Origin: Watersipora subatra
Taxonomy: Eukaryota; Bryozoa; Gymnolaemata; Cheilostomatida; Watersiporidae
Direction of reading: 5' to 3'
Length of the DNA stretch: 64,000 nucleotides
NCBI RefSeq assembly: GCF_963576615.1
Contig: NC_088711.1
Location: 33,964,121 to 34,028,120, forward strand
The notes below the pieces were generated by a model that did not search any database, was not told where the DNA came from, and saw only the letters and a program-made list of their open reading frames with translations. Made by a program: the position numbers and the translations under genes. This document shows, in pieces, positions 30,722 to 63,140 of the stretch; position 1 is the stretch's first letter, and each line of letters opens with the position of its first letter.

Positions 30722-31211
30722 CAGTTTTTTACACTATAAAATTATTTATTCTTTCTGAGTTACTATAGGAATCAGGCACATATAATCACTTGCTACTAGA
30801 TATACGTTCTGTGTTATTTGATAGCAAAGCTTTGATGACCACCAGCTATTTATGACAGAAAACCTATGACCCTTAATCCAGAACCTAGCTACGGCATTAT
30901 GTTTATTATAAGCTCGATGTCGACAATCATTATCGATAGCTGAAATACCTACTGAAAGAAAAATGACATAAATGAAATTGAAAATACAAAAACAGGTTTT
31001 TAAGTTAACGGAACTAAATTAAACTTTTTTGTAAATAATTTTGTTAAATTTTTTTATAGATTTGGTATTGACAGCCTTCAAAAGGCAAGGCTTTAATACT
31101 AAGAATGCTTGATGCGGGCTTCGGCTGGTAGGTCCCAACTAGCTACACGTGTTATTGTTAGCTAGCGAGAATAGATCACATTCCTCATAATCATAGGGCG
31201 TGCTGAATATA

Positions 31212-31219
31212 GAATGCAC
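31212..31219. other. empty target site for the hAT-like MITE of copy B
   Basis: Copy A has a single GAATGCAC in the context TATAGAATGCACGGCTCC. In copy B the same octamer flanks an insertion on both sides (47657-47664 and 51541-51548). This is the pre-insertion state. Confidence 0.85.
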
Positions 31220-31525
31220 GGCTCCATTATTACCGGCTGCCATTATTCCATCGGTGAATAATTACCTGATGCTGAAACTAAATATTGCTCACAGACAGGT
31301 CTTGTTATTCCATTCTCTAATGACCGCTGCGCAGTGTGTACTCAAATTCTATTGTACGTAACTTCATTATGGTCCTTGGGTTTAATTGATAAACAAATTT
31401 GTAACAACTAAAACACAATCAAGTAGAGTTTTTTTTGTGTTTGGTTTATGTTTACAAAGTATTGAAGTACAGAAAGTGAAAGAGGCTGTGGCACTACTAA
31501 AAGCAGCTTGTCAAGGGAGAACTTC

Positions 31526-34500
31526 CTAAGGAGAGTTCATCCATAACATAGCCAAAGCTATCAGAGAAAGACATGTTCCAGCTGAAATCTTTTCTCCATG
31601 GTTTCCTCCATGTTCTTTTTCAATGAAGTCAAATGCACCATCTAAAACACAGCAAGACATGAAAATTACTGCTCTATTACAGAAAATAAATACACAATCA
31701 TTTGATAGAGAATACCTGTTATCCCAGAATGCATGGCCAGTTAGACAACATTTTACAACGTGTACTTAGGCTGCCCCCAGCTAGCAGACCCCAGTGAGCC
31801 ATTAATTATAAAAATCTTAAAAGACAAGGTTCACTAATAAATATAGAGCAAACCGTGCCATGGACATGGAGCTATTTTGATAGCAATAGTTGAAAGTCCT
31901 TCACTGTTTCTTTATCCTAATAGTATAGAGTTTATATTGGCCACTGAGTATTGAGTTTTTTGATTGATTATGAACTAAGATAGCATGTGGTCCTTGGCAA
32001 AATTACGTGACAAACTGAAAGGTACATGTAGCTGTACATATTATTACTTTTCTTTATACACGTAAAATGATCCACCAGTAGTGTCCCACGCAGGGGCTAC
32101 TAAGATGGCTGCTCATTTCTTGAAGGGCTTCTTAAAAATTCTCTTTTCACATCAAATAGTCAGCGGCTGGCTATACGACAGCAATTGTAGCATGGCATTG
32201 CAGCTATGCAGCAGCAATGGTAGCGCAGCATAGCATTGCAGCTATGATGCATCAATGGTGGCATAGCATCACAGCTATGTAGCAGCATTGTTAGCAATGG
32301 TAGCATAGCATTACAGCTATGAAGCAGCAATGATAGCAATGACAGCATAGCATTACAGCTATGAAGCAGCAAAGAAAGCAATGGCAGCATAGCATTACAG
32401 CTATGAATCAGCAATGGTAGCATAGCATTGCAGCTATGAAGCAGCAATGAAAGCAATGGCAGCGTAGCATTACAGCTATGAAGCAGCAATGGTAGCATAG
32501 CATTGCAGCTATGTAGCAGCAATGATAGCAATGGCAGCATAGCATTACAGCTATGAAGCAACAATGGTAGCACAGCATTGCAGCTATGTACCAGCAATGA
32601 AAGCAATGGCAGCGTAGCATTACAGCTATGAAGCAGCAATGGTAGCACAGCATTGCGGCTATGTACCAGCAATGAAAGCAATGGTAGCATAGCATTGCAG
32701 CTATGAAGCAGCAATGAAAGCATTGGCAGCGTAGCATTACAGCTATGAAGCAGCAATGGTAGCATAGCATTGCAGCTATGTACCAGCAATGAAAGCAATG
32801 GTAGCATAGCATTGCAGCTATGAAGCAGCAATGAAAGCAATGGCAGCATAGCATTACAGCTATGAAGCAGCAATGATAGCATAGCATTGCAGCTATGAAG
32901 CAGCAATGATAGCAATGGCAGCATAGCATTACAGCTATGAAGCAGCAATGAAAGCAATGGTAGCATACCATTGCAGCTATGCAGCAGCAATGGTGATTAA
33001 TGTATTCTAACTTATAACTGCGTGTATAAGTATACTGAACTAAGTAGATCACAGCATAGTAAAGCATATTCTACTCGCCTGATAGCGAGATAGCTTTAAT
33101 AGCCTTTAGGAATAGCCTTTAGGATTAGCAGTAGCTACATGAAAGAGTGTTCAAAGCTCTAACATAAAACTTCTACCACAACAATGTTTATGCAGTTCAT
33201 GGCTGTGTCCTAAAACTAGTAATAACCAATATAACTATAGAAAAATACATATGTAAGTGTAAGTAGAGTATTATATTTGTGTAGGAGAGAGTTGTCTTCT
33301 CTTCTATTTGATCAGTTTTTGAAGGGGCAGAATTATTGCATATCTATAGTATTTTTTAAAGTCAATATAAGTTATTAAAACAATGAGTCGGTGTCAAAGC
33401 TATTACTGTTTTAACAACAGACACACCAGGTAAGTGTAGAGACACAGGCTACAGCAGGTAAGCGTAGAGACAAAAGCTACAGCAGGTAAGCGTAGAGACA
33501 AAGGCTACAGCAGGTAAGCGTAGAGACACAGGCTACAGCAGGTAAGCGTAGAGACAAAGTCTACAGCAGGTAAGCGTAGATACACAGGCTACAGCAAGTA
33601 AGCGTAGAGACAAAGGCTACAGCAGGTAAGCGTAGAGACAAAGGCTACGGCAGGTAAGCGTAGAGACACAGGCTACAGCAGGGGTTGAACACCTGAGTGA
33701 TAGTTGTTATGACACTTCCTGCCATAGTTAAAATATTTTAGGTAACTTAATGGTGCTTGCATAGAACTTCGACTATCTTATGTCACTGTATATCAGTTGG
33801 TTGTTGGACTATTGGTCGTTTGTCCTACGCCTGTCAAGTTATAGGCATAAAGTTTTAGTCACGAAAAATGCACTTTAGGTGGGGTTTGAACTTAGAACCT
33901 ACAGCTCTTCAGAAAAGTGTGCTAAATAGCGCTGCACGATATCTTTGCATGTACATTCGATTATTTGGTCTCAAAATATATCGAATAATATCGAACATTG
34001 GAGTTGTCTTCTTTGATATATAGTGTTGGGCTTTAACATGAACGAAATGAGAGGATACTGGTTGATATCGGTTGAAAAACAGGGGTTGTCACCTCGTTAC
34101 AATAAAGAGAATAGACAACTCCACTTTTGCAAAATAAAATATCAATGTCGACATTCATATCGACTTGAAAACTGACCAAGTATAAAATCATCCACTGAAA
34201 TATATTGTCATATCGGATTGTATCGTGTTATCGTGCAGCACTAGTGCTAAACCACCAGGCCATCCGGCTACATGGCTATACTATGAATTAATTGTCCAGA
34301 TAATACTAATTACACTCGCTGAGCTTTATTGCCAATTGGTTAAAATACTCAGACCTCATCTAGCACGCTTAAAGAGCATGATGCAATCTTTTTTCCGCGT
34401 GCTGGCTTAAGTTATAATAATGGCTTCTATGAGCTTAAGTTATAATAATGGCTTCTATGAGCTTAAGTTATAATAATGGCTTCTTTGAGCTTAAGTAACT

Positions 34501-37500
34501 CAAATTCATTGGGTGAAGAAACTTAGCTAATTGAAAACCAATTTTTTATGCAAAAGCTTATTTTATCCCTCATGCAACGCCGGGCATTCAACTAGTAATA
34601 TATATTATTGGGATTGTCACGTTTGGAGCAGCGCAAGCATATTATTGTTTTATTTAAACTGCGCTATATAGAGTCTAGCATTGGCTCCTAAAGTTGCTGT
34701 TTGAAGGTCTTGTATACCTATATGATAGCATCTGTAGAGAAAGGGTGATAAGACACGCTATACTTACAGGGACAATAGTCGCAAGTGTATGGACAATAGG
34801 CTTCCAAACCTGCTGTACATTTTCCATTGCATGCGTATGGTACATCCTCAGTGTTGGTGCAATTTACTGTAATTACAACCGACCAATTTGCATATAGCTA
34901 ACATGAGGGAACTGAGAGAAGAAAATGCATATTAGCGTCTTTTCATTTATTTTTTTGTTTTACTTTGGAACAAAATGAGAAGCAGTTTTGTTCACAATAA
35001 CTATGGGCAGCAAAATAAAGTAATATGTATAATAAATCTGAAAATACAATAAATAAATAAATCAATGCATATAACAATATAATAATATTTAAAGTAGTAT
35101 GCATAATAATATAATAATAAAAAATATTATGTGTAATGATAAAATAACATACAAGATTAGACTTGCCCTTATTGACCAAACTAAATCCGCAAAAAATAAA
35201 CTACATGTATTTGATTTTACACTTAAGTTTATATCCTCTCTTGGCAATCAATTAGCAATATCGCCTTACTTTCTGATTGGCTAACAGAAATAGACTTACG
35301 AGCGCAATCTAATTGAGGAGAATACAGTGATGATCTAGTGATACAGCTGCAAGTGCAGGTCTCCAAGTCCATACCTCCTCCGTTATAACAGACTCTACCT
35401 CCACAGTCTGTATAAAGTGTAGTAAAATAGATAGCCCTGAGCGCAACTGTCACAGATGAGAAAGCTCATTAGGTTTCTTATAACACCATGACTTGTTTCA
35501 CCAAACTCACTTTTAAACTTGTTTGAATTATATGAAACTCGGCTACAGCATAAAAACAATTCTTTTGCGATGAATTATTCGGTACCAAATAAATTTGGTA
35601 GAACATGTGCTCCTACGGTTTGTGATCTCGCAATAAGCGTGTAGAGCTAACCAATTAAAATATGTTATCCTTTGAGTTCGCAGGTTAATTAATCAAGTTT
35701 TCTTTTTTGCCTGCATAATATAAACAGCTATAAAAAATAATTGCACTCATTATTTTCTTACAAGTGAGTCAATTTTCCTCCTACCCGATTTGCAAATGAA
35801 AGTACACAGGAATAGGCAACTCTTACATACCGCATAAGCCTTTATTATTCCCAGATGTAATGCAATTGCCACCGCGTCTGCAACTGTCACACTGTGTGCC
35901 TTCTGTGTATGGTTTACTCCAGTCTATTTGCCTTCAAAATGATGCAAATTTATTAATGTCTTTACAATCCCCTCTATGAAGTTGCCAAAATATCTTTCTA
36001 TTAATTCGTTGTACAGAAACATTAGTTAATTTCACAAGAGATTTATTTACTAAACAACTATGACCTCAAAGCGATACAAATTTTAAAATAAAACAGCTTT
36101 GGTTTGTAAGATCACACACAAGTGGTCACTAGCCCTGTTTTAGTTTATAACCAGACTTCAAGGTCACACATGTGCACATATTAATCTTACCCTGGTCCAT
36201 AATTGCACACGTAGAATCGTCCTTTGGTAGAGCATTTGGTGTAACCGCAACCAACCTTTGTGGAGTTTGCTCTCACCACCTGGTTATGAGAAATACTGGG
36301 ATATAGAAATGGTTCATATAGACTAAAGTAAGTAACAATGATTCATATAGACTAAAGTAAGTAACAATGGTTCATATAGACTATAGTAAGTAACAGTGGT
36401 TTATATAGACTAAAGTAAGTAACGATCGTAAGTAACATGAACATAGCGTCCTTTTCTTCTGGCTCATTGCTCACCTGTGTAAAATGTCCAACTTTTTCAA
36501 ACTGCATTAGAGAAGCGTTGCCATAGTGAAACGCTGACTGCTCGTTGAACCAGCTTTGTACAGTCTGATTCCAGTCTTTGTAATTGTAGCCAATATTCTG
36601 TCCAACTCTTAATCTGTCAGAAGCGTGTAACACAGTCTAAGCGCAATGTAAATGCTTTTTAAATCTAAAATTATCTTTGAATTATGGGATATGTCTTATG
36701 GGGCATGAATTATGGGATATGTCTTATGGGATAATATGATGTTCACTTAAAGACAGTAAGATCAACTCTCTTTGGTATTTATAATATCCAGACAATGGCC
36801 GTGGGAGCCTTGAATCCACGACCTCCTAATAGTTTCAGTTTATGGTGGCAGCAGTTCATACGTCTGTAGATGTTTGTCCTCATTATTGCTGCCGCAAGCT
36901 AGATTTGCATCAATTTTAGGTGTATTTAAAGTATTCACATGTATTTCACTTATTTTAATATTGATATTGTCTCCAATATTATGTACAAAAAGTTATATGA
37001 GAGAATTATAAATTCATTTACATTAATTATTCATTTATCAATAATCTTCTGTAGAAGTTTGACTTGAAAAACCTGCAAAATTGGTTTTCATTTTAAATTT
37101 TACTATCTCTACTACATGTATAAGTAGTTCTTTTTTGTTGATCTATGAATTTATATAGTTCATACTTTTGCTGTGACGATGTTAAATGTAAACAAAAGTT
37201 CAATTAATATTTTCAATCATCATGAATGCTAAGTATCAAGATGAGTAAATTTAATTTGTCAAATAGATAAAACTGTAAAACGTTTAAAACTTGAATGAGA
37301 AGAAGGATCATTCTCAACAGAGCTGACCAGAGTGCTGCTATTATCCGTTATTATTATGTTTTTCTCTCTTTCCTGCAGTTATCATTACTCTTTTAAGTCA
37401 CTTTTTCATATTTCTCTTCATTAGTTATCATTGTTATTATTGGCTATTTAAATTAACCAAGGTAAGACTAAATTACGCTATGATTAAGTGTGAAACCACA

Positions 37501-40500
37501 GTATGTCAGACCTTCCTGGAATCGATCGTTGATCACCAGAATCATGCTTTATGTCGCAATTGTCCGCCCATCTTTGAGCTATTGCAGAGAGCTCTTCATC
37601 CCAGGCCTGCAGTTGTCAACCAAAACATCAATTATCATTGTGTTAAAGTTTATATTCCTAAGCAACAGTGTGCAAGAAACTCTCTTGTTTGACCACAACT
37701 CATTCTTACATTAATCCAAACTCTTTTGATAAGTTTTTTCCTAAATGATTGATGTGCCCTGTTCAAGGCAATGAACTAAACCTGTAATTCTAGTAATTTC
37801 AATCATTATCTATGGCAGATGACATATGACATATGACAAGATGACCAAGGACTTATGACAGGCATCAATATGACAACTGACATAATATATTATTCGGCAA
37901 TATCAGATGTCATATGGTATATGACAAAAGATATATGCGACACATGACAAACGACATATAACAGTGTAACAGTTGAACTTGTATGAAATATGACAATTTG
38001 ACAATATGACATGTGACATGTGACATATGGCATATGGCACATGATATATGTCATAGGATATATGGTATATGGTGTGAGTCATATGATATATGGTATATGT
38101 CAATGTGATATAGAACAAGATGACATATAAATGAGATATGGCAATTTCCTTACAATCATTCTGACAATATGGAAATTAATTAAATTAATAATAATTGGAG
38201 CATTCTTTCTTGGAACTTGTTCGACAGTGGTAAGCGAAAGTGTCAAAAATGACATGACATATAACAGCGCAACAGTTAAAATTGTATGACATATGACAAA
38301 ACGACACGTCACATATGTCATATGATATATTGGAGAATATCATATGACAATGATAATTGCTATGTCTCATTTATATGCCATAATGGTCTATGTCACATAG
38401 AACAATACGGCATATAAATGAGATATGGCAATTTCCTTACAATCACTCAGTCAACAAAATTGGCAACCGACACGCTTCTATATAATAATTGGAACGTCCT
38501 TTCCTGAAACTTGTTGGACAGTAGTAAGCGAAAGTGTCCAAAATGAGTTCATCGATTTGCACAAAGCATTGAAGCATGCTCAAAGCACCCTGTCTTCCGT
38601 GTCATTTAAATACCGCTCTCTCATTATTCATATCATAGTCCAACTGATTCTTTACAAAATACACCTTTGCTCCAAATATCGTTAAAAGGATTAAGTATAA
38701 AATCTAAGCAATATTTAGTGGTAAGATATGAAAGAAATTGTCTCCACCAACCATAACTTGCATATCTGTGGCGTTCTTTATGCTTGCTCTTAGTAGATTA
38801 TGTAGTTCTGTAATGGAAGTTGCCTCCACTTTGCTAACACCTGAAACACAAAGAGCACTGTGACTTTACTATTCTGTATGATCTTATAACAGTGTCTCAT
38901 GTTAGCTGTTTGGTCTTATCCTTGTAAATGCTTGAGATAAAGGCAATCATGCCCATAGTTTGGTCTTTTAGGGCAACACAGATACACAACAGGTTAGTAT
39001 GTCTGTTAAAACTTTGCTGAGGGAATTTGGTCGACAATTCATTTAATCACAAAGATAATAATAATACTTAATAATATTTATATATATACTTTTATTGGGC
39101 AGTCCATAATCATTTTATAGAAAAAATGTTTTACACACGGGGCCATAAAAACAACCAATAAAAAATAAGGTAGTACCATCTGGTGTCACAAATGCAAAAA
39201 CACAAATTTATACAAGAAGGCTCGAAGCTACTAAGTTTAGGTATAGATGCTATTAATTAATAATATTACTTACTAATTAATAAGTAATTAATTATATTAT
39301 TAATTTAGCAATTTAGCGTATGCAATCACGAAAAGGATATACAATATATAGTAAGAGTGATAAAAATGGTAAAAACGGCCTAGCCTTGTGGTTGCATGAG
39401 CTTGTTAGTAGCTATGTTAGTAGACTTGGGGTTTGAATGTCTGAGTGTCAATCCAGGATGAAAGCGATTTTCTAAAGGTGATTTTCCATTGCTGAAACTT
39501 GACCAGTTATAACGGAACAGACGACGACAGACAAACTTTGAGATGTATATAAATAGATGAATATTATATACAAGTATATATATTTATAGGTGTACACATA
39601 TTTATAATGGATAAACACTCAAACCTAGGGTAAACAGCACTTCATGCATTGAAGTGGTGTTATAACTAGTGTTGAGATAGGATAACTAACATTTCTCTTG
39701 TAGCATTGTTATTTTCTTTGTCTCCTGCATGTTACTGCCCTCTTTACATAAGTAACTCTTTACTCGGTGACACGAATAACGCAGCAGTATAAATCGAAGT
39801 CTACAAAAATTTCTACACAAGGATCTGAACATTGCATCTCTAGCAGCTTGGCAGCAAACCTGTGCCATCATCGGATAGCACGGCTGACGGGTTTTATCCA
39901 TGGTAGAGTAAGTGACGGGCCACTTACAAAGATAAGTGTCTCAGTGTTTATGATGAGCCTACATCATAGATATAATAAACTTTATTATATCTATGGCCTA
40001 CATCTATTGTACTGGGTAGACTTGTTTCTCTTTGTGAAGTTTTTTGGCTTTGATCCAAGAATTGGCACTGTTAGGCTAAATGGTTAGAGATTATTTAACA
40101 ACTTTATTAATAATAGTATAGAATAACAATAATTAAAAAATTTATTATTAATATCAATAATAATTGTTTCAATACCAATTAATGACATGAAATGAAAGAA
40201 CTTATCAATATTCACATATCTTTGTAACATTCCACTCTGACACAACGCAAAGGTTAGCAACAGATATAGGTTACGCAAAACGGTGCCGGCTAGATAACAG
40301 CATTGATTATGAAAATATTTTTAATTAAATTTTTATTACGTTACTATAGATCATTTTAACAATTTAATAACTGTAGTTATCAACTTATTGCTTCAGTGTT
40401 TGATATAAAAAGGCCAAATCGCCGTACAGTTCTCTAGTCTCATAAAGGTTATTAAACTTATCTCGAAATTACTCTGAATATCTGGTCATGTTGACTCTGA

Positions 40501-40992
40501 AATCTGCCAACTATAGACAAGTGTTAAATTACCTCACAAGTCAAAAGAGCTCCAGCACCACTGTAGCTCATTACAGGCAAATATAAGGGTGTCAAGGAGG
40601 TAAACAAAAGCAGCTGCAGCTAGATAGGTATGAAGAATGGTTTTGATGCTGAACATGAGCTCTTGCAATACAGAGATTCTCAGTTTTAATCCTAGCTATC
40701 ACCATTTATATACAATTATAGTGTCTAAAAACCTCCAAAATCTATATCTACAAAGATAAATTTCTTTAAATGCTGTTATAAATGAATATAAATTAAAATA
40801 CTGTGTAATAAAAGTTTAATCATACCTAAGTTAGTAATGTGATTTATAGAAATTATATGTCTATTAGAATAACTCTATATTAACTCTCACACCTCTGTCC
40901 TGTTTGTCAGCATCAGCAGACATAGGCAAGCATGCCGTGTGTCCGGAAATAATGGTAAACTTTTCAGACAAACATTCACTTTTTCCGGCTGC
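31526..40992 (-). CDS. CAP/SCP protein with EGF-like and ShKT modules and GPI-type tail (gene A)
   Basis: Nine exons fit in phase (921 nt, 306 aa plus stop, first exon missing): 40893-40992, Cys-rich leader with SGHTACLP; 38752-38840, CAP start ITELHNLLRASIKNATDMQV; 37512-37606, WDEELSAIAQRWADNC; 36475-36613, VGQNIGYNY...WFNEQSAFHYG...VGHFTQ; 36191-36279, VVRANSTKVGCGYTKC...FYVCNYGP; 35831-35916, hinge PYTEGTQCDSCRRGGNC; 35300-35407, EGF-like CGGRVCYNGG...CTCSC; 34768-34866, six-Cys ShKT; 31526-31641, EHGGNHGEKIS then a hydrophobic end. The CAP motifs HN..R, GQNIGY, GHFTQVV and CNYGP are intact, though the usual W of VVWA is R. The tail suggests a GPI-anchored extracellular protein. The hinge acceptor is less certain; an AG seven bases upstream would break the phase. 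A signal-peptide exon was not found above 40992. ShKT modules can bind ion channels or matrix; the role here is unknown. Confidence 0.75.
32160..32998. repeat. 33/42-bp composite minisatellite, copy A only
   Basis: Two unit types alternate: a 33-base unit (GCAGCTATGAAGCAGCAATG plus GTAGCATAGCATT) and a 42-base unit with an extra AAAGCAATG segment. Both lengths are multiples of three, so the reverse strand stays open and gives chance 219- and 276-aa frames. It lies in the last intron of gene A; copy B has no such array. Confidence 0.95.
33420..33682. repeat. 28-bp minisatellite (GTAAGCGTAGAGACAAAGG), copy A
   Basis: About nine copies of a 28-base unit ending CTACAGCAG. The paralogous array in copy B (52515-52858) has about 12 more diverged units, so the arrays have changed since the duplication. 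It lies in the last intron of gene A. Confidence 0.95.
33683..33690. other. empty target site for the P-like element of copy B
   Basis: GGTTGAAC occurs once here, in AGGGGTTGAACACCTGAG. In copy B it appears on both sides of the 3.2-kb insertion (52858-52865 and, with one change, 56072-56079). Confidence 0.85.
33790..34600 (-). mobile_element. tRNA-containing interspersed repeat with a nested MITE, copy 3
   Basis: On the minus strand it begins CTAGTTGAATGCCCGGCGTT (34597) and contains a tRNA-like core with GGATGGCCTGGTGGTTTAGC split by the hAT-like MITE at 33927-34243, then GTAGGTTCTAAGTTCAAACC. The orthologous position in copy B (56790-57058) is unsplit. A 28-bp GCTTAAGTTATAATAATGGC triplication lies at 34405-34490. 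Confidence 0.65.
33927..34243. mobile_element. hAT-like MITE, 317 bp
   Basis: Terminal inverted repeats TAGCGCTGCACGATA / TATCGTGCAGCACTA; flanking exact 8-base duplications GTGCTAAA at 33919-33926 and 34244-34251. Eight-base target duplications with short TIRs are typical of hAT elements. No coding capacity. The empty site is GTGCTAAA at 56938-56945 in copy B. It is the same family as the element at 47665-51540. Confidence 0.9.
36300..36432. repeat. 29-bp minisatellite (GGTTCATATAGACTAAAGTA), copy A
   Basis: About four units of TAAGTAACAATGGTTCATAT plus AGACTAAAG, between two CAP exons. Copy B has about 15 units at 58930-59375, so the array has expanded or contracted since the duplication. 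Confidence 0.9.
37800..38560. repeat. degenerate ACATATGACATATG tract and local duplication
   Basis: From 37815 to 38110 and 38275-38400 the sequence is a degenerate CATATG/ATGACA repeat. In addition about 38110-38260 and 38400-38555 are diverged copies of each other (shared ATAAATGAGATATGGCAATT and TAAGCGAAAGTGTC). The right boundary of the segmental duplication falls in here. Confidence 0.7.
39370..39590 (+). repeat. diverged tRNA-like interspersed repeat
   Basis: Contains GCCTTGTGGTTGCATGAGC (A-box-like), GGGTTTGAATGTCTGAG (B-box-like) and a GACAGACAAACTTTGAGATG tail, the same order as the CCGGCGTTGC-family repeats. The head is not clear. Confidence 0.5.
39957..40003. repeat. 31-bp perfect palindrome flanked by 8-bp direct repeats
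   Basis: CATAGATATAATAAA, one central C and TTTATTATATCTATG (39965-39995) form a perfect inverted repeat. Exact GCCTACAT flanks it on both sides (39957-39964 and 39996-40003), as a target-site duplication would. It may be the residue of a deleted hAT-type element or a very small hairpin insertion. Confidence 0.85.
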
Positions 40993-40999
40993 CTAAAAT

Positions 41000-42170
41000 T
41001 AATACAAGCAGCATAATAAATGATAGAAAACAATATAGTGTTTTACATTCATGACATTGTCGGTATCGGTATGGTTGGTTCTCATAATTGGTATGTTCAC
41101 TTTGCTCACATTTATGTAAATACAAGCTTTGAAATGTATGAAATCTTATTTCTCCTGCTATAACATAGTAATAACATCCACCAGGCTGTATAACGCATTA
41201 AACAATGCATGTCTTGTATACAACAATATGTACTTCAGATCAGACAATGTATGCCATCGACTCAAATGTGTACGCTTTGCACCAAATAAAGTACACCTAA
41301 CAATGTACCGTAAATCTTCATGTATGAGTTACAGATATACAGCATATATAAGCTGCTATGAGCCATGTTTCCGTTTATTAAACACACTTGATTTAACTTA
41401 GCCTGTGATTCATTCGCCAAACCTGCCATCTCTGTTCGCTGTCACACGCACAAGTTTGCTGACGAGATGGCAATCGACCAATGAGTAAGTGTTCAGGGAA
41501 CCACAGCAAAAAAGTATCCAATCAGCCAGCACATTTTGTAACCCATTTAAATTGAAGGCTGTGAACGTAGCTTTGGAAACTACCAACCGATATGCTGTCA
41601 CAGTTTTTGAATTAACGAAAAGCAACCCAACGAATGGAATCAAATCCTGGATATGTCACATGACAGTGTCACATGACAGTGACCATGACTAGTGACCTCA
41701 TTATGTCAGTGCAAGTGTTGGATATTTCCTACCATCTTATTGCTGAATAAATTATTTTTAGCATTGGGGCTGAAAGTTACCTTAACCCCAAACGTAGTGA
41801 GAAGTTTATGAGTATAATTTTTAGACTGCAGGTATAAGTTTTTAAACAAGTTTTCAAGCACCCCAAACTTTAAAACAAAGTTTCAGGTTCACAGTGTGGC
41901 TTATAGATGAGGATTTACGGTATGTCTTTTTCACACTGATATATGCTTCAGACCTAACGATTTACACTTTTTCAGCAATACAAGCCTCACATTCAACAAC
42001 GGATGATTTTTACTCCATTTTTATTCTTATTTTCATGCCTACCATGTATGATTTACACCCAACAATATAACATACTTAATGCTTGGCTGCTGAGGGACAT
42101 GAAACATTTGAATAGCATGCAGTACAGAAGCAGCACTTACAGCGACCACTGTTTATATACTGCTAGTAAT
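41000..42170. other. no gene recognised upstream of gene A
   Basis: The signal-peptide exon and promoter of gene A should lie here or further right, but no exon can be supported. The short frames at 41129-41692 show no domain. TGACAGTGTCACATGACAGTG near 41660 is a small direct repeat. Confidence 0.4.
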
Positions 42171-42176
42171 CAACAT

Positions 42177-42400
42177 TGGAACCTTGGCTACACAAGTGGA
42201 ACCTTGGCTACACAAGTGGAACCTTGTCTACACAAGTAGAACCTTGGCTAAACAAGTAGAACCTTGGCTACACAAGTGGAACCTTGGCTACACAAGTGGA
42301 ACCTTGGCTACACAAGTGGAACCTTGGCTACACAAGTGGAACCTTAACTACACAAGTAGAACCTTACCTACACAAGTGGAACCTTGGCTACACAAGTGTT
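42177..42400. repeat. 20-bp minisatellite (AACCTTGGCTACACAAGTGG)
   Basis: Eleven copies of a 20-base unit with few variants. It produces overlapping Trp/His/Lys-rich chance frames on the plus strand. Confidence 0.95.
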
Positions 42401-43935: not shown

Positions 43936-43959
43936 CTGACGCGAGGTCAGCATAAAATG

Positions 43960-50911: not shown

Positions 50912-51086
50912 GAGTAACGAGAAGAGTATTTTAGACGGTGGCACAGGGTCAGACAAGCCAGAGGCATAGCCTATGGAGACTGCCCTAACAGAGTAAGGTA
51001 TGAGCAACACAAGTAAGGTAAGCTACTATGTCTGCTTGTTGGTAGTGATGAGGTGGCCTCAAAAAAAAGAAAAAAAAAGAAGGGCA

Positions 51087-51322: not shown

Positions 51323-51859
51323 ATATGACAGGATATTGGTTAATATTGGTTAAAACAGGAGTTGTCCTCTCGTTACAATAAAGAGAATAGACAACTCCAT
51401 TTTTGCAAAATAAAATCAGCCGATATTTCGATAAAATATCGGCTTCGGCATTCATATCGACTTGAAAACTGACCAAATATAAAATCATCCACTGAAATAT
51501 ATCGTCATATCAAATTATATCGTGTTATCGTGCAGCACTAGAATGCACGGCTCCATCATTACCTGCTGCCATTATTCCATCGGTGAATAGTTACCTGATG
51601 CTGCAACTAAATAATGCTCACAGACAGGTCTTGTTATTCAATTTTCTAATGACCGCTGCTGTGCAGTGCTGTATTCAAATTCCATTGTACATAACTTCAT
51701 TATGTTCCTTAGGTTTAATTGATAAACAAATTTGTAACAACTAAATCACAATCAAGTAGAGTTTTGTTTGTGTCTGGTTTATCGCTTAGAAAGTAATGAA
51801 GTACAGAAAGTGAAAGAGGTTGTAGCACTACTGAAAACAGCTTGTCAAGGGAGTACTTC

Positions 51860-54800
51860 CTAAGGAAAGTTCATCCATAACATAGTCAAAGCTATCAGAG
51901 AAAGACATGCTCCAGCTGAAATCTTTTCTCCATGGTTTCCTCCATGTTCACTGTCTTTGTTTCCTCCATGTTCAGTCTCATTGTAGTCAAATGCACCATC
52001 TAAAACACGGCAAGACATGAAAATTACTGCTCTATTACAGAAAATAAATACACATAATCATTTAATAGAGAATACCTGTTATTCCAGAATGCATGGCCAG
52101 TTAGACAGCATTTTACAAAGCGTCATTAGGCTGCCCCAGCTAGCAAACCCCAGTGAGCCATTAATTAAAAGAATCTTACTGGTTTTTCCATGGTTTCCTC
52201 CATGTTCTTTGTCTTTGTTTCCTCCATGTTCTTTGCCTTTGTTTCCTCCATGTTCTTTGTCTTTGTTTCCTCCATGTTCTTTGTCTTTGTTTCCTCCATG
52301 TTCTTCGTCTTTGTTTCCTCCATGTTCAGTCTCATTGTAATCAAATGCACCATCTAAAACACAGCAAGACATGAAAATTACTGCTCTATTACAGAAAAGA
52401 AATACTTACACATAAGGGGCAGAATTATTGCATATTTATAGTATTTTTCAAAGCCAATATAACTTATTAAAAAGTGAGTTGGTGTCAAAACTATTATTGC
52501 TTCAACAACAGACATACCAGATAATCGTAGAGACACAGGCTACAGTAGGTAAGCATAGAGACACAGGCTACAGCAGGTAAGCGTAGATACAAAGGCTACA
52601 AGGGGTAAGCATTGAAACACACGCTACAGCAGGTAAGCATTGAAAAACAGGCTACAGCAGGTAAGCATTGAAACACAGGCTACAGCAGGTAAGTGTAAAG
52701 GCACAGGCTACAGCAGGTAAGTGTAGAGGCACAGGCTACAGCAGGTAAGCGTAGAGACACAGGCTACTGCAGATAAGCGTAGAGACACAGGCTACAGCAG
52801 GTAAGCGTAGAGGCACAGGCTACAGCAGGTAAGTGTAGAGGCACAGGCTACAGCAGGGGTTGAACCATTGAACTTAAAAGTTAAAACCCCTGGAATGGCA
52901 ATCGCGTGACTTTTACATTGATAGCGATACATAATGCATGCGCCATATTGGGTGGCTAATCGTATGCTAGTTCCGTTTGTAAACAAACAGTGAAAAATGA
53001 CAGAAATGCACATGTTGAATAGTCATTTTCCAGCTGGGTGTTAATAAAAACTCCTCCTACACAACGTTTAGAGTGCCATGATAGAAGAAAACCTATTTAT
53101 AACATATGGAGTGGATATAATAAATGATAAGTAGATGTTAAATAGATTTTTTTGGACCATATTATTCATACAAACTGTTGTATTACAGATGCATAAACCT
53201 AGCAAATGATATATTCAGGCAAATAACAACCATTCCATTATATTAAAAATTATATTACATATACATAAACCATAATGGAGAAACTTAGCAAATGAAGTAT
53301 TTAGATAAAAACAACACACATGCTGCCAAAACAAAAACCGTTTCAAGATTTGAGTGATAATAGCTTATGAATGTATGATATGTATAATACAGTATCTGTA
53401 AAAGATGGAATGAACTACTGCAACAACTAAACGGAAATTAGAAACAGTTGTAATAAAGGATAATCAAAATAATGCAAACAAGGAAATGCCGGAAGTAGTG
53501 TAATCAGTTGATTAGACCTATACATACACATTACAGAAACTGTGTAAAAGGAGATTTGTATACCACTGAATATTGAGCCAAGGTGCATCAGAGTTTCTTA
53601 GAACTAAATCAGATTAGGAATAGCAGCACAACAACAGCTACAGATGAATATTACAGTTCAATATTATCCTTTATTACAGTGATTATATTGTTACTGGCCT
53701 TTAAAAAGTACTGATTTAGTATTTTATGCCACAAAGATGCACCTTGCAGTTTGAATGTACGATTTTAGCATAATGATGCTGTCCGAGATCATAAAACGAC
53801 TGAATAAGGTTTTTCATCAATGAAGCAGTGGTTGGATATGCCATCTGCTGTGTCCGTAAGGTGTTTCCCAAGGCATAGGACATTACTAGATCCTACACTA
53901 CTGATAACATTCACCACACAATGGAGTGAACCTGGCTTTGCATTAATACGAAAGTATTGATCTGCAACTAGCAGGATCCTGATGACACCGTCTGATGGAC
54001 GCACCAATCTTCCATTGTTTTGTAGCTCGAGTAGAGTATAGAGATGTCGGTACTGGATACTTGACTTAGTGGTAACCAGCAACTGACGGCCAATGTGACA
54101 GCACTTTATTTAGCTTTTGCACAATGTAGCCAGCTATACAGACTATACTGTTACCTATAACAGAAATCTTACATCTGAAATCATTGTACTGTATTGAAAA
54201 CTGATCAACTTCTGGAGTAGCCTGTATGATGAGAATCTCGTTTTGAGCAGTAACATTACCTGTCTCACCAACATCTGATTCTGCACCACATTTGCTGATA
54301 AGTTTGCGAAAGGTAGCCTTAAACTGAGTAACAGTAGGATTATTATTCCAACCCCCTAAACAAAAGCATCAATTATAACAATTACATGTACATAAAATCA
54401 ACAAAAATGAATGTCTTATTCACATAAACATAGTACCCTTAATACACAACAATACAGCTAATTAAATAAGTGAAAATAAAATAGCTCAAAATGCTACCAT
54501 ATTGCTATGTAAAATGAAAATGTGGCAATTTTCACTGAAAGTCCTTCACGCACATCTTAGGCATAAAGCTTAATGGAAATTTCTTAATCAAGCATGGATC
54601 AAAAATAGAATGCATCCATGAGATTATTTCAATAGAAATGACCACAAACAAATTACAGAAATACTGCAAAGGTGTACTAACCATTGCCACAAATGCATTA
54701 CTAGAGAAATTTACATCAACATCTTCTGCTAAGCTGCAGACATATTCATAAGCACTTGCTGTGGCAGCTGTCACTGTTTTGCATGCTGTTTGAGGTTTCT

Positions 54801-57800
54801 GAATTTTTTAGATATATCTACTTTAAGTTGAACAACCTTGCAGCACTGTGCTTGACAATATGGTTTGGAATTCAATCATTGAAAAGCACCATTCAACATT
54901 GAAAAAATAAACCTTTAAATGACTGGGCAGTGTAAACAGTGTGGGCACAGCATCTGGTTTCAGTCGAACATTTTAACCTGTTCTGTCAAAACATAGATAA
55001 TTGAAATGTTCGTTGCAGATAAGTGCCCGAGGACCAGGCTTATTCACTCTTCTGCAGTTACAATGCCATTGTAAATAACAAGAGTTTTCAGTTACTTTGT
55101 TTATAAATCTAAAAATTAAAATGAAACTGTAATAGTTAGTTGGCAACAGTAGTAATAACAATAGTATTGTTACTCTTACCTCCTTACTGCTAGCTATATC
55201 TAGGTACAACAATAAACAATATAGGCACTACAAACATTTTTTTCAAATATTTATTTAGAAATAATGCGATGGTTCGTAGTTCCTAAATCTTAATATAATA
55301 AAAATTTCAAATTTAAATAATAAGAAACTTTTGTTATGAAAAGAGAAAAAGTTCACTCACTAGCTTATAAATTTATCTAATCACCGACAACATACAGTCA
55401 AACTCGTACACTCAGTAGTGACACTGATCGACTCTCACTCACTTAGTGTCTAGTGTAGTAGAACTAACTAGAAGCAGTACTAACATAGTAGTAGCACAAC
55501 TAGTAGTAGTCGTAAACTTTAGAAATAGTAGTAGAACTAGTAGTAGAAGTGACTCACTTGTGAAATGTCATGCCCTTTCCTTCAAAAGTCCATTCGTGTG
55601 GTTTTTGCAGTTCATGGAATAGCAGTATAGCACTGTGCACCTACAGGCCTGCCAACTCTCACGCATTGGACGTGAGACTCACACAATCACACCAAAGAAA
55701 AAATGAAAATGCGTGAGAAGTGTGTGAGACTTTTTCCCCAATTTCCACAATTTTGTATATACTATCATTGATACATCAATTGCCCCAAAACCAAATCTCA
55801 AGCATTGCTCCACTCTTGGGTTGGCAGACCTGTGCACCTACACCCTTCTGCCTCTTACATAAGTTATTAGTAGTAATCTCAGTAATCTGTTCCCTTGATT
55901 TAGCGGTGTATCGGTGTATCCGTAATCTTCCATAGCTGTTAAATCTGAAATTACATTTCTTTCTCACATTGAACACAATGAAATTTACTCAAACGCTAAC
56001 TCAACATGGCGTCGGCCGGATTTCCGTAGTTGCGAATGACCTTTTCCATTTCAGGGGTTTTGAGTTCAATGGGTTAAACACCTGAGTGATAGTTGTTATG
56101 GCACTCTATGGTGATAGTTAAAATATTTTAGGTAACTTAATTGTGCTTGCATAGAACTGCGTCCATCTTATTTTTATGTAAACAAAAAATCATGAAAAAG
56201 TTTTAATTCATAGCCTACCTCATCCAGTTGATGGCCATTGTTTATGTTGATCTATACCAAAGTCAGCAGTCTATTAGTCATCTATTATCTACTTATAATA
56301 ACCAAATTAGAAAAAAATCTTCAACTTAGAATGATAAATATAGAAAGAACTTCAATGCATAAAAAATAGTAACAAAAGAAATATTAATTCCTTAGTGTTA
56401 CAGTAAATCTTTGCTTGTTATGATTCACTGATAGTCAGTGTTGTCTATCATCATACATAGCTTGTTGCCCAGCTAGATGATTTACTGGTAGTCAGTATGG
56501 TCTATCATCATACATAACTTGTTGCACAGCTAGATGATTTACTGGTAGTCAGTATGGTCTATCATCATACATAGCTTGTTGCCCAGCTAGATGATTTACT
56601 GGTAGTCAGTGTTGTCTATCATCATACATAGCTTGTTGCCCAGCTAGATGTTCGGGGTTTTAACTTTTTTATTTCTATAAAAAATTCAGAGAAGACGTTG
56701 TTTGCCCAGTTCAATGAGTAATTATGAATGATATGAATATGATTATGAATATACAGATGAACATAATCTTATCTATATAAATATAATAGATGGCAGTGTT
56801 TATCAGTTGGTTGTTGTACTATTGGTCGTTTGTCCTACGCCTGTCAAGTTATAGGAATAAAGTTTTAGTCACAAAAATGCACTTTGGGTGGGGCTTGAAT
56901 TGAGAACCTACAGCTCTGCAGACAGGTGTGCTAAACCACCAGGCCATCCGGCTACATGGCTATACTATAGATTAATTGTGCAGACCATACTTATTACACT
57001 TGCTGATCTTTATTTATTATTACTTATTACCCTTGCAATACCCGGCATTCACTGAGTAATATATATTATTGGGATTGTTACGTTTGGAGCAGCGCAAGCA
57101 TATTATTGTTTTATTTAAACTGCGCTATATAGTCTAGCATTGGCTCCTAGACTTGCTGTCTGAAGGTCTTGTATATATGATAGCATCTGTAGAGAAAGAG
57201 TGATAAGACACGCTATACTTACAGGGACAATAGTCGCAAGTGTATGGACAATAGGCCTCCCAACTTGCTGGACATTTTCCATTGCATGCGTATGGTACAT
57301 CCTCAGTGTTGGTGCAATTTACTGTAATCACAACCAACTAGTTTGCATATAGCTAACATGAGGGAACTGAGAGAAGAAAATGCATATTAGCTTCTTTTTT
57401 ATCATTTTCTTGTTTTACTTTGGAACAAAATGAAAAGCACTTTTGTTCACAATAACTAGATAATGTGCAGAATAATATTATATAAAGTGGAATAAATAAT
57501 AATACAATAACGTATAAAGTAATATGTATAATACTATTATATAAAGTAATATGCATAACAGTCTAATAATATATAAAGTGATGTGTATAGCAACATAGTT
57601 TTATATGACATGATATGGGAAGCTTGCTGTACTTGATTTCTCAACTAAGTTCAGCTATTGGTTTTGGAGCATGTGTTAGACTTGCCCCTCATGACCAAAA
57701 CTAATATGGTTTTGGAGCATGTGTTAGACTTGCCCCTCATGACCAAAACTAATACCGCAAAAAATAAACTATTCGAATTTACATTTAAGTTTATATCCTC

Positions 57801-60800
57801 TCTTGGCAATCAATTAGCAATATCGCCTTACTTTCTGATTGGCTAACAGAAATGGACTTACGAGCGCAATCTAACTGAGGAGAATACAGTGATGATCTAA
57901 AGATACAGCTGCAAGTGCAGGTCTCCAAGTCCATTTCTCCTCCGTTATAACAGACTCTACCTCCACAGTCTGTATAAAGTGTAGTAAAATAGATAGCCCC
58001 TGAGTGCAACTATTGCAGAAGATAAAACTCATTTTTCAACTTGTTTGAATTATTTGAACCTCAGCTACAGCACAAAAATAATTTTCTAGCGAGGAATTAT
58101 TCGATACCAAATAAATTTTGTAGAAAATGTGCTCTTACAGTTTTGATCCGGCAATAAGAATATGAAACTCGGCTACAGCATAAAAATAATTCTTTTGCGA
58201 TGAATTATTCGGTACCAAATAAATTTGGTAGAACGTGTGCTCCTACGGTTTGTGATCTCGCAATAAGCGTGTAGAGCTAACCAATTAAAGCATGTTATCC
58301 TTCAAGTTCGCAGGTTAATTAATCAAGTTTTCTTTTTTGCCTGCATAATATAAACAGCATTAAAAATAATTGAACTCATTATTTTCTTACAAGTGAGTTA
58401 ATTTTCATCCTACCCAATTTGCAAATGAAAGTACACAGGAATAGGCAACTCTTACATACCGCATAAGCCTTTGTTATTCCCAGATGTAATGCAATTGCTA
58501 CTGCACCTGTCACACTGTGTGCCTTCTGTGTATGGTTTACTCCAGTCTGCTTGCCTTCAAAATATTGCAAATTTATTAATGTTCTTACGAACACGTGTTT
58601 AAAGTTGCCAAAATATCTTTCTATCAATTCCTTGTACAGAAACATTGGTTAATTTCACAAAAGATTTATTTACCAAACAATTATGACTTAAAAGCGATAC
58701 AAATGTTAAAGTAAAACAGCTTTGGTTTGTAAGATTACACACAAGTGGTCACTAGCCCTGTTTTAGTTTATAACCAGACTTCAAGGTCACACATGTGTAC
58801 GTATTAACCTTACTCTGGTCCATAATTGCACACGTAGAATCGTCCTTTGGTAGAGCATTTGGTGTAACCGCAACCAACCTTTGTGGAGTTTGCTCTCACC
58901 ACCTGGTTATGAGAAATACTGGGATATAGAAATGGTTCATATAGACTAAAGTAAGTAACAATGGTTCACATAGACTAAAGTAAGTAACAATGGTTTATAT
59001 AGACTAAAGTAAGTAACAATGGTTCATATAGACTAAAGTAAGTAACAATGGTTCATATAGACTAAAGTAAGTAACAATGGTTCATATAGGCTAAAGTAAG
59101 TAACAATGGTTCATATAGACTAAAGTAAGTAACAATGGTTTATATAGACTAAAGTAAGTAACAATGGTTCATATAGACTAAAGTAAGTAACAATGGTTCA
59201 TATAGACTCAAGTAAGTAACAATGGTTCATATAGGCTAAAGTAAGTAACAATGGTTCATGTAGACTAAAGTAAGTAACAATGATTCATATAGACTAAAGT
59301 AAGTAACAATGGTTCATATAGACTAAAGTAAGTAACAATGGTTCATATAGACTAAAGTAAGTAACGATCGTAAGTAACATGAACATAGCGTCCTTTTCTT
59401 CTGACTCATTTCTCACCTGTGTAAAATGTCCAACCTTTTCAAACTGCATTAGAGAAAAGTTGCCATATTGAAATGCTGACTGCTCGTTGAACCAGCTCTG
59501 TATGGTCTGATTCCAGTCTTTGTGATTGTAGCCAATATTCTGTCCAACTCTGAATCTGTCAGAAGGGTGTAGCACAATCTCAGCACAATGTAGATGCTTT
59601 CTAAATCTAGAATTATCTTTGAATTATGGGATATGATTTATGGGGCAAGAATTATGGGATGTGTCTTATGGGAATGAATTATGGGATGTCTAATGGGGCA
59701 TGAAATATGGGATGGGTATTATGGGATTGAATTATGGGATTTGTCTTAATGGGCATGAATTATGGGATATGTCTTATTGGGCATGAGTTATGGGATGTGT
59801 CTTATGGGAATGAGTTATGGGATGTGTCTTTTATAACATGAATTATGGGATATGTCTTATGGAGCATGAATTATGGGATATGTCTTATGGGGCATGAGTT
59901 ATGGGATGTGTCTTATGGGAATGAATAATGGGATGTGTCTTTTATAACATGAATTATGGGATATGTCTTATGGAGCATGAATTATGGGATATGTCTTATG
60001 GAGCATGAATTATGGGATATGTCTTATAGAGAATGAATTATGGGATATGTCTTATGGAGCATGAATTATGGGAGATGTCTTATGGAGCATGAATTATGGG
60101 ATGTGTATAATGGAGCATGAACTATGGGAGATGTCTTATGGAGCATGAATTATGAGATGTGTCTTATGGAGCATGAATTATGGGATATGTCTTACGGAAC
60201 ATGAATTATGGGATATGCCTTATGGAGCATGAATTATGGGAGATGTCTTATGGAGCATGAGTTATGGGATGTGTTATATGAGGCTTATGATGTTTACAGT
60301 AAGATCAACTTTCTTTAGTATTTATATTAGCTAGACATGGGCCTTGGGAGTCTTGAATCCACAACCTCCTAATAGTTTCAGTTCATGGTGGCAGCAGTTC
60401 ATACGTCTGTAGATGCTTGTCCTCATTATTGCTGCCGCAAGTTGGGTTTGCATCAATTTTAGATGCATTTAAAGTAATCAAATTTATTTCACTTATTTTA
60501 ATATTTATATTGTCTCCATTATTATGAGAGATTTAAAAATTCATTTACAATAATTATTCTTTTATCAATAATTTCCTGTGGAAGTTTGACTTGAAAAGCC
60601 TGCCAAGCTTGTTTTCAGTTAATACTTTATCATCTTTACTACATGTATAAGTAGTTCTTTTTTGTTGATCTATGAATTTATATGGTTCCTACTTTTGCTG
60701 TGACGATGTTAAATGTAAGCAAAAGTTCAATTAATATTTGCAATCATCATGAATGCTTAAGTATCAACATGAGTAAATTTAATTTGTCAAATAGATAAAA

Positions 60801-62655
60801 TTGTAAAACATTTAAAACTTGAATGAGAGAAAGGATCACCCTCAGCAGAGCTAACCAGAGCGCTGCTATTATCCGTTATTATTATGTTTTTCTCTCTTTC
60901 TCGCAGTTATCATTACTCTTTTAAGTCACTTTTTCATATTTCTCTTCATTAGTTATCATCCCACGACCAAACACGAGCAAAGCGATTGTTTAGTAGATTT
61001 ATGATAAATGCCCATGGGCACACAACTCCCGAAAACTTTCCCGAAGTCCATTCAACAAATTAAACCATTTTTGTGTAGAGTCGTTCAAGTATAATAATGA
61101 TACATAACACATATAAACATATTTAAATATATTACCAAGTCTTTGAAAGGTTGCCGCAATCACCTAAAACTAACCCATCTGATCGGATGATACATAAATA
61201 GACAGATTAATTCAGCCTAAAATCGAAATAGAAACTTAAGAAGCCTTTTTTAATAAAAATTAAGACCGGTTAACAAAACGCCAATAAGGCCGTGTGACAG
61301 ATAGTATAACCATTAAGTCGTCCAAATTTCACGAGAAAAACGTGCACATTTAACCAGTCTATAGAATTGTTCAATTGCCGAAGGTTTCTGTAATTAACTT
61401 CGAAGTACTAAAAAGTGATTGTTTCTTTTTTGCCGATTTTATTATTCGAATTAATTATTTGATTTTATAAAAATATTATTATAATATTTAATTATAAGAA
61501 TAATCATTAGAATTTACAACATCGAAGTATATAATGATTGCATTGTCTAATTGCCGAAGTTTTCTTTAATTAACGTAGACCGTTTGAGCGTAAACCGATT
61601 TACTGGTACGAAAATGTGGTACACAGTTTATCAGCCCCTGTTTTTTGTCCAATTACCGAAGGTTTCATTAAATTATCTAGAACAAGAGCCAGAATTCTTT
61701 ACATCTTATCTACTAGTTAGGGCCAAACTAAAATGCCCCTTTGTGACAAGAATATTTCTTTATTTTACTCCAGTTTGCAGAAAACTTCCAGACGCGTTAA
61801 TGCTAATGCTTGCTTCCTGTTACAAATCGCTGTCAAAACCATTCGACATTCAACACAACCAACTTTCAACTTTCCAACACAATTTTAAAACTGCGTATAT
61901 TACATGACAGCTTGCCATTTTACTTTTAATAATGTATTTCAGAGATATAATAAACATATTTCATTATTGCTGTTGTTAGTTAAATTACGTACAGTAGGTT
62001 AGGCCTACAGCTTGAATTAATATTTATTTTATTGTTGCAAAACCTAGGTTTGAGATAGTAGTAGATTAAGTCTGATTTTTATACAACCATTTGTTTTGAA
62101 TAATTGACATTTTGAATTTTAATTCAAAACAATTTGACAACTACCATGGACATACAACCTCCCAGAACACCACATCGTCACAGTGGCCATCCAAGTGTCT
62201 CCCAATTATTACACAGGAAGAGAAATAGAAGGTCCTCACAGCAACCATCAACATCAAATGCTAATGTTCAACAACACGCTAATCAAAATAATAACAACAA
62301 CTCATCTGATTCAGAGAATTCTTTAGTAGATGTTGTAGGCAAAGCCTACAACATTTAACTAAAGAATTCTACTTTTGTAGAATTCTGACCTTTTGTAACT
62401 ACTTTTTCAAAAACCAGCAGTACCCTTTCTTTTTTCCAATATCACTTTGGTCGTGGGCTGTATGACAGGGGAATTTCTATTGTTATTATTGGCTATTTAA
62501 ATTAACCAAGGTAAGACTAAATTACGATAGGATTATGTGTGAAACCACAGTATGTCAGACCTTCCTGGAATCGATCGTTGATCACCAGAATCATGCTTTA
62601 TGTCGCAATTATCCGCCCATCTTTGAGCTATTGCAGAGAGCTCTTCATCCCAGGC
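51860..62655 (-). CDS. CAP/SCP protein with EGF-like and ShKT modules and GPI-type tail (gene B, 5' part missing)
   Basis: Eight minus-strand exons are in phase (924 nt): 62561-62655, WDEELSAIAQRWADNC; 59417-59555, VGQNIGYNH...VGHFTQ; 58814-58902, VVRANSTKVGCGYTKC; 58460-58539, hinge (two codons shorter than in A); 57862-57969, EGF-like; 57223-57321, ShKT; 52180-52353, a repeat exon with about six EHGGNKDK units; 51860-51999, the tail exon ending with hydrophobic GACLSLIALTMLWMNFP. Both tail-type exons begin GAFDYNETEHGG, so B has a duplicated tail exon, the inner copy expanded by a 24-bp coding repeat. Exons matching A's 38752-38840 and 40893-40992 are absent up to 64000; B may be 5'-truncated or continue to the right. 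If the ShKT donor is not used, a short read-through tail to about 57134 is possible. Confidence 0.65.
52190..52335. repeat. 24-bp coding minisatellite in gene B
   Basis: About six copies of GTTCTTTGTCTTTGTTTCCTCCAT-type units. Read on the minus strand each is an 8-residue EHGGNKDK repeat, and the reading frame is kept. Copy A has a single EHGGNHGE here, so the expansion is specific to B. Confidence 0.9.
52515..52858. repeat. 28-bp minisatellite, copy B
   Basis: About 12 units of GTAAGCGTAGAGACACAGGC plus TACAGCAG, more diverged than the copy A array at 33420-33682. The P-like element inserted just past its right end. Confidence 0.95.
53789..55620 (-). pseudogene. P-element/THAP9-like transposase remnant
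   Basis: Minus-strand pieces. Around 55558-55620, ...EWTFEGKGMTFHK ends at a phase-2 donor; an acceptor at 55108 continues in phase 2 with FINKVTENSCYLQWHCNCRR then PGPRALICNEHF. The W, P and C-x2-H-F arrangement is that of a THAP zinc finger, but its N-terminal Cys pair is not visible. At 54155-54355, between AG and GT signals, comes LGGWNNNPTVTQFKATFRKL, typical of the C-terminal half of P/THAP9-type transposases. At 53789-54082, LLELQNNGRLVRPSDGVIRI follows. The catalytic domain was not found. These pieces look like a shortened or decayed transposase. Confidence 0.6.
55440..55550. repeat. TAGTAGAACTAG microsatellite-like tract
   Basis: Degenerate AGTAGTAG/GAACTAG repeat inside the P-like element near its THAP-type exon. 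Confidence 0.7.
55644..55832. mobile_element. hAT-like MITE, 189 bp, nested in the P-like element
   Basis: Starts CAGGCCTGCCAACTCTCACG and ends GGGTTGGCAGACCTG, an inverted repeat of about 14 bases. Exact 8-base duplication TGCACCTA at 55636-55643 and 55833-55840. No coding capacity. It differs in sequence from the TAGTGCTGCACGATA family. Confidence 0.9.
56410..56652. repeat. 57-bp minisatellite, about four copies
   Basis: Units containing GATGATTTACTGGTAGTCAG and TCTATCATCATACATAGCTT, low divergence. Present in copy B only. Confidence 0.9.
56790..57058 (-). mobile_element. tRNA-containing interspersed repeat, copy 6 (paralogue of copy 3)
   Basis: Reverse-strand core GGATGGCCTGGTGGTTTAGC then GTAGGTTCTCAATTCAAGCC, with the head near 57055. 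It carries the uninterrupted GTGCTAAA (56938-56945) that is duplicated around the MITE in copy A. Confidence 0.65.
57656..57755. repeat. 48-bp tandem duplication
   Basis: TGGTTTTGGAGCATGTGTTA with its following GACTTGCCCCTCATGACC segment occurs twice. Copy A (around 35155-35180) has only a short single equivalent. A second local duplication of about 120 bp lies at 58030-58270. Confidence 0.8.
58930..59375. repeat. 29-bp minisatellite, copy B, about 15 units
   Basis: The same unit as 36300-36432 in copy A (TAAGTAACAATGGTTCATAT plus AGACTAAAG). It lies between two CAP exons of gene B. Confidence 0.95.
59618..60285. repeat. 28-bp minisatellite (ATGAATTATGGGATATGTCT), about 23 units
   Basis: Units of ATGAATTATGGGATATGTCT plus TATGGAGC with variants. 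Copy A has only about two units at 36685-36740, so this is a large expansion in copy B. Confidence 0.95.
62149..62358 (+). CDS. short Asn/Ser/His-rich frame in Helitron-like copy 3
   Basis: From the ATG at 62149 (an earlier one is at 62134): MDIQPPRTPHRHSGHPSVSQ, then a basic stretch and NQNNNNNSSDSENSLVDVV. Low complexity with no domain. Its 3' end overlaps the hairpin at 62315-62370. It could be the truncated start of a transposon protein; low confidence that it is coding. Confidence 0.25.
   Translation, partial: DIQPPRTPHRHSGHPSVSQLLHRKRNRRSSQQPSTSNANVQQHANQNNNNNSSDSENSLVDVVGKAYNI
62315..62370. repeat. 56-bp hairpin
   Basis: The left arm AGAATTCTTTAGTAGATGTT continuing GTAGGC and the right arm GCCTACAACATTTAACTAAA continuing GAATTCT pair except for one inserted base and one mismatch, with an AAA loop. 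It lies about 110 bases before the 3' end of the Helitron-like element. A further TAGAATTCT copy follows at 62388. Confidence 0.85.
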
Positions 62656-63140
62656 CTGCAGTTGTCAACCAAAACATCAATTATCATTGTGTTAAAGTTT
62701 ATATTCCTAAGCAACAGTGTGCAAGAAACTCTCTTGTTTGACCACAACTCATTCTTACATTAATCCAAACTCTTTTGATAAGTTTTTTCCTAAATGAATC
62801 ATATGGGCCTGTTCAAGGCAATGAACTAAACCTGTAATTCTAGTAATTTCAAACCTTATCTATGAAAAATGAAAAGATGACAATATGACAAAGAACAAAT
62901 GACAGGTAACAATATGACCACTGACATAGTATATCATTTGACAATATTAGATGTCATATGGTATATGACAAAAGATATATATGACACATGACATGTAACA
63001 GCGCAACAGTTAAAATTGTATGACATATGACAAAACGACACGTCACATATGTCATATGATATATTGGAGAATATCATATGACAATGATAATTGCTATATC
63101 TCATTTATATGCCATAATGGTCTATGTCACATACATAGAG

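Follow-up and report, generated by a model that had tools for sequence, protein, structure and literature searches.

The human alpha-globin duplication units carry tandem genes, and their homology blocks are split by insertions and unevenly diverged. A similar arrangement, with another gene and with one copy nearly three times longer than the other, was found in a 64-kb stretch of Watersipora subatra DNA (the window; C4:33964121-34028120 of a 783.7-Mb assembly of 239 contigs). It is best read as a 16-kb tandem duplication with one CAP-domain gene per copy, followed by divergence and by insertions into one copy or the other, and we put the probability of this reading at about 0.88. The locus is real and precise, and larger than first noted; it is an ordinary, well-preserved tandem duplication.

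The use of a paralogue as an empty site to prove transposition is an established method (PMC4495683). In the part of that report used here, a diverged, element-free duplicate shows the pre-insertion target and the target duplication, as the two copies do at this locus. There, each element has one empty site of about 120 bp, whereas here one tandem pair serves several elements in both directions. It has also been proposed, in the theory set out in part of PMC3966223, that mobile-element insertions act as terminator mutations, which break the homology of paralogues and could slow gene conversion; the divergence here is patchy, with at most a possible link to insertions. A single locus thus pins down, in one animal, where several transposon families end and which target sites they use, and its two apparently constrained genes tolerate about 30 kb of one-sided growth.

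Extent of the duplication and its CAP-domain genes

Comparison of the window with itself gave collinear blocks, mostly of 82-94% identity, between 30947-38102 and 47391-63129. Homology was followed past the window using 40 kb of right-hand flanking sequence, in which the numbering of the window is continued. It breaks at A 38399/B 63133, restarts at about B 65354 and ends at A 47096/B 93122. The copies are adjacent and in direct orientation on the same contig, and the chain consists of 19 collinear blocks end to end.

30947..47096, no strand: copy A of the duplication, 16.2 kb, delimited by the chain of alignment blocks to copy B
47391 to about 93122 (C4:34057242), no strand: copy B, 45.7 kb, delimited by alignment of the flank; 47391..64000 is the part in the window

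The corrected alignment of A and B contains 888 substitutions at 10,946 aligned sites (8.1% overall), and the divergence per block is 1.4% to 26%, most blocks lying at 6-26%. No third copy of the duplicated stretch was found in the 783.7-Mb assembly with two probes: for a 2-kb stretch of A, the only full-length matches among the 40 of 1229 candidates that were scored were A and B themselves, the others being short pieces, and the matches of a 424-bp stretch were confined to A and B.

The initial annotation had proposed a tandem duplication whose copies act as mutual empty sites, and this is borne out by the collinear blocks and by junctions read base by base. The alignment of 30905-38400 with 47335-63140 was collinear, and each junction that had been given for an insertion was confirmed at the level of single bases; the exact element ends are supported, with coordinates correct to within about ten bases. 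On the other hand, the end of the duplication had been set wrongly at 38400/63140. Position 63134 is the entry of a further transposon with terminal inverted repeats (TIR), beyond which homology resumes, and the copy B first described spans only about a third of the true 45.7 kb. Two resolved insertions in B and a TTAA-flanked insertion in A had also been omitted.

Each copy contains one CAP-domain gene.

34772..38835, minus strand: CAP-domain gene of copy A, recognised by homology, with seven exon stretches (34772-34867 to 38758-38835)
57227 onward, minus strand: CAP-domain gene of copy B, recognised by comparison with A, with six exon stretches in the window and the seventh at 65713-65790 outside it

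The joined exon peptides of copy A matched PF00188 (CAP; E 7e-23) and PDB chains of the CRISP type (best E 9.6e-22). By eye the tail of the protein looks EGF-like and ShKT-like; Pfam gave neither at E 0.1 on the joined CAP exon peptides. All seven recognised exon stretches are open in both copies, with an in-frame 6-base difference in exon 5. Over 211 codons, with the differing part of exon 5 excluded, the nonsynonymous divergence (dN) between the copies was 0.021 and the synonymous divergence (dS) 0.070, so that both copies look constrained. The resolved insertions of B sit in introns or outside the CAP exons. Both genes are presumably functional. A genome search for CAP listed eight places, and these exons were absent among them.

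Insertions and their empty sites

Nine insertions were resolved: seven in B, of which five are primary and two nested, and two in A, both primary. A greater accumulation of insertions in B was considered as a signal and rejected, the 5 resolved primary events in B not differing significantly from the 2 in A (two-sided binomial 0.45).

33927..34243, no strand: hAT-like miniature inverted-repeat transposable element (MITE) in A, 317 bp, with inverted ends TAGYGCTGCACGATA and the 8-bp duplication GTGCTAAA
47665..51540, no strand: hAT-like MITE in B, of the same family as the A MITE, 349 bp without the long terminal repeat (LTR) element that it contains, with the duplication GAATGCAC
47796..51322, plus strand: LTR element within the B MITE, 3527 bp, with LTRs at 47796-48028 and 51087-51322 and the duplication ATATG
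52866..56071, minus strand: P-like DNA transposon in B, 3206 bp, with the 8-bp duplication GGTTGAAC/GGTTAAAC
55644..55832, no strand: 189-bp MITE within the P-like element, with inverted ends CAGGYCTGCCAAC and the exact 8-bp duplication TGCACCTA on both sides
60959..62479, plus strand: Helitron-like element in B, 1521 bp, TC...CTA, between A and T
63134-65353 (63134..64000 in the window), no strand: TIR transposon in B, 2220 bp, with inverted ends of about 254 bp and the exact duplication GTCACATA
67985-72192, reversed: second Helitron-like element in B, opposite the site between A 41022 and 41023
44704..45601, no strand: element in A, 898 bp, with 183-bp inverted ends and TTAA on both sides

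The MITE in A is flanked on both sides by GTGCTAAA, and a single GTGCTAAA in B, at 56928-56935, is its empty site; the site in B had been recognised in the initial annotation, at the inexact position 56938. The MITE in B is flanked on both sides by the exact 8-bp sequence GAATGCAC, which occurs once in A at 31212-31219, where its empty site had been placed (31212). The 8-bp target duplications GTGCTAAA, GAATGCAC and TGCACCTA fit the hAT type of MITE, which combines an 8-bp duplication with short inverted ends; the ends themselves are presumably also hAT-like. GGTTGAAC on the left and GGTTAAAC on the right of the P-like element agree at 7 of 8 bases, and GGTTGAAC is present singly in A at 33683-33690, in accordance with the site first given (33683). 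The P-like element has the terminal inverted repeats CATTGAACT...AGTTCAATG, which together with the 8-bp duplication constitute the structure of the P superfamily. Its pieces matched TNP-like_RNaseH_C with 26.6 bits (cut-off 24) and THAP with 18.1 bits, the latter below the cut-off of 23.9. The duplication of the TIR transposon, GTCACATA, occurs once in A at 38392-38399, and a single TTAA at 85489-85492 in B is the empty site of the 898-bp element.

The LTR element has two direct LTRs (TGTTG...CAACA) and the 5-bp sequence ATATG at either side. A domain scan of the window covered 147 open pieces (147 of the 150 longest, from 298) and listed 11 families. Open pieces of the LTR element gave a gag-asp_proteas match (aspartyl protease; 7.9e-9) and a weak CCHC knuckle match. 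Because no reverse transcriptase or integrase family was among the 11 listed for the 147 pieces, it is possibly a non-autonomous gag-protease element at most. The divergence of its LTR pair by the Kimura two-parameter distance (K2P) was 0.054. Transitions and transversions numbered 12 and 0 in the LTR pair, 19 and 4 in the MITE pair, and 550 and 374 between A and B in an earlier alignment (924/10,994 sites), a difference with a Fisher p of 0.0003; the transition excess in the LTR and MITE pairs is perhaps due to cytosine deamination in transposons.

The empty site of the Helitron-like element at 60959-62479 lies between A 37430 and 37431, where A and T are adjacent. The site first proposed, between A and T at 37430, was thus confirmed, with the reservation that the flanking letters permit the cut one base either way. 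The second Helitron-like element contains another stretch of its own family; at its site copy A reads G and A, and the flanks in B are A and A, differing from the usual A and T. Across the genome, a 21-base pattern of the 3' end is matched exactly 1426 times, 778 times on one strand and 648 times on the other, compared with 0 times for the reversed control. The survey took the first 30 loci of the listing, which all lie on contig C1 and three of which form one array: TCTAG was present at the 3' end in 27 of the 30, the next base was T in 26 of the 30, and A preceded the 5' side in 11 of the 15 loci showing both ends. The ends of the family are TCCCACGACC...CTAG, and an inverted copy of the 12-base sequence CCCACGACCAAA from the 5' end stops 23 nt short of the 3' end.

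The family therefore has the ends and target of a canonical Helitron as defined in the relevant part of PMC5148889, that is 5' TC, 3' CTRR and insertion between A and T with no target duplication; the element in the window ends in CTA. PMC4067079 describes an intermediate that combines 5'TT with 3'CTAG. As presented in the part of PMC4344730 drawn on here, the Hel-2 Helitrons of Lepidoptera resemble this family in their TC...CTRR ends, target between A and T and subterminal inverted repeats, and differ from it in sequence and length. A new structural class was rejected, since canonical ends with subterminal inverted repeats were already published there, and the family appears to be new but to belong to a known kind. 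Two further arrangements of its members were observed. Three Helitron-like 3' ends stand in a row with 142-bp spacing at C1:4441661-4441965, where the usual following T is absent, and a tail-to-tail pair lies at 14274-15482 and 15495-16615 of the window, its CTAG ends parted by TATATATATATA.

Order of events and uneven divergence

The paired copies, the nestings, the open exon stretches and the insertions, each with a single target copy opposite, were all observed directly, and on this basis the following history can be proposed. A 16-kb stretch of chromosome with one CAP-domain gene would have been duplicated in tandem, and the two copies, presumably identical at birth, would then have diverged. 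Copy B would have taken at least five separate and two nested insertions and grown to 45.7 kb, and copy A at least two; minisatellite arrays would also have changed length. The insertions would have spared the exons, both CAP genes keeping open and apparently constrained exons, and the opposite copy would serve as the empty site of every resolved insertion. The duplication may have arisen by unequal exchange or by replication error; the ends of homology have decayed.

The uneven divergence of the copies was analyzed by a segment fit with exons excluded, and its significance was assessed by shuffling 100-bp and 200-bp blocks. The fitted low segment, A 37111-41002, contains 130 substitutions at 3356 noncoding sites (3.9%) compared with 743 at 7061 (10.5%) outside it, a contrast matched in 0 of 1000 shuffles of 100-bp blocks and 2 of 1000 of 200-bp blocks. 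It is tentatively suggested, at somewhat less than even odds, that gene conversion homogenised this stretch around the first exons while the remainder diverged with the help of insertions elsewhere. The contrast itself and the fitted right end at 41002 (support 40978-41919), close to the second Helitron-like insertion, argue for this, and the notion of insertions as terminator mutations had already been put forward (PMC3966223). However, the left end is only loosely placed (37107-38285), and two of the B insertions (A 37430 and 38399) are contained in the segment and so did not bound it. Furthermore, the segment takes in the first exons along with introns and upstream DNA, and there regulatory constraint would give the same picture; both gene conversion and regulatory constraint are possible. 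That the locus records transposons ending gene conversion, the first-exon stretch being still homogenised and the insertion-cut stretches having drifted apart, seems improbable.

A low tract bounded by transposons on both sides was also considered, and was rejected. It rested on the tail B 62986-63129 being paired with the wrong tandem unit of A; with the correct pairing, A 38252-38399 with B 62986-63133 (98.6%), the left end moved to the loose interval given above. The corresponding figures (blind fit 38394-41004, tract 87/2491, random placement 1118/100,000) were withdrawn.

As to the order of insertions, nesting shows that the LTR element entered after its host, the B MITE, and that the 189-bp MITE entered after its host, the P-like element. 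Both nestings had been proposed in the initial annotation, and they stand, the target duplications lying inside the host elements. Its further claim, duplication first and insertions afterwards, is likely rather than proven because it presupposes two copies that did not differ at the outset. The LTR element is the only insertion whose order is backed by a date: the K2P of its LTRs is lower than the 10.5% noncoding divergence of A and B outside the low segment, and the insertion is thus probably younger than the split of the copies.

Alternatively, some insertions might predate the duplication, if they had been polymorphic and an unequal exchange between haplotypes had left a filled and an empty site in separate copies. 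For the insertions other than the LTR element, entry after the duplication is the simplest account, yet for the MITEs and the P-like and Helitron-like elements an earlier polymorphism would leave the same pattern, as empty sites give no date. We nevertheless regard it as doubtful, since the LTR pair is less diverged than noncoding A and B (743/7061 outside the low segment), and the same explanation must apply to several elements and to both copies. Least probable, and unlikely from the sequence itself, is an assembly artefact, a possibility raised in the initial annotation, in which A and B are two alleles of one very polymorphic locus set in tandem: the arrangement of the copies would look identical, and false duplications are widespread in assemblies according to the part of PMC9516828 consulted, which recognises them by discordant reads together with a gap, in assembly or in depth, that separates the two copies, but no N base, and hence no assembly gap, is present in 124 kb including the A/B junction, a difference of 6-26% in most blocks is very high for alleles, and an LTR pair at 0.054 would make the insertion a very old polymorphism. 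That neither probe revealed a third copy likewise speaks against misplaced alleles.

A tandem duplication followed by one-sided insertions thus remains preferred, although several points weigh against it. A gap-filled, seamless misjoin without N would escape notice in the sequence. The last block (A 46811-47096) has only about 74% identity at aligned sites and A 47097-47335 is without a clear partner in copy B, and therefore the right end of the duplication is uncertain. Moreover, several length differences between A and B have no readable target duplication.

Other length differences, repeats and features

The length differences that were not assigned are as follows.

56172-56789, 73484-75959, 76114-83830 and 86057-92458: unassigned length differences in B
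31820-33321, 34331-34557, 37952-38251, 43029-43508 and 46190-46431: unassigned length differences in A

The stretch B 76114-83830 resembles a canonical Helitron at its right end, where a small G+C-rich palindrome precedes CTAG and the next base is T; the position of the left end is uncertain. Minisatellites differ in copy number between A and B, a 29-bp unit being present 4 times versus 15 times and a 20-bp unit 11.1 times versus 8.9 times. The window as a whole is very rich in minisatellites, with 75 tandem-repeat rows per 64 kb, many of them overlapping. Both copies share short repeats, near A 39073-39250 and 39311-39565, that match numerous other places with roughly 69-85% identity; these were probably inserted before the duplication.

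A minus-strand open stretch at 6487-6771 gave a Claudin_2 match of 36.1 bits (cut-off 29.1), which marks the genome as that of an animal. COX1 had no match in the assembly. No Rfam match at the gathering score and no tRNA were found in the 64-kb window.

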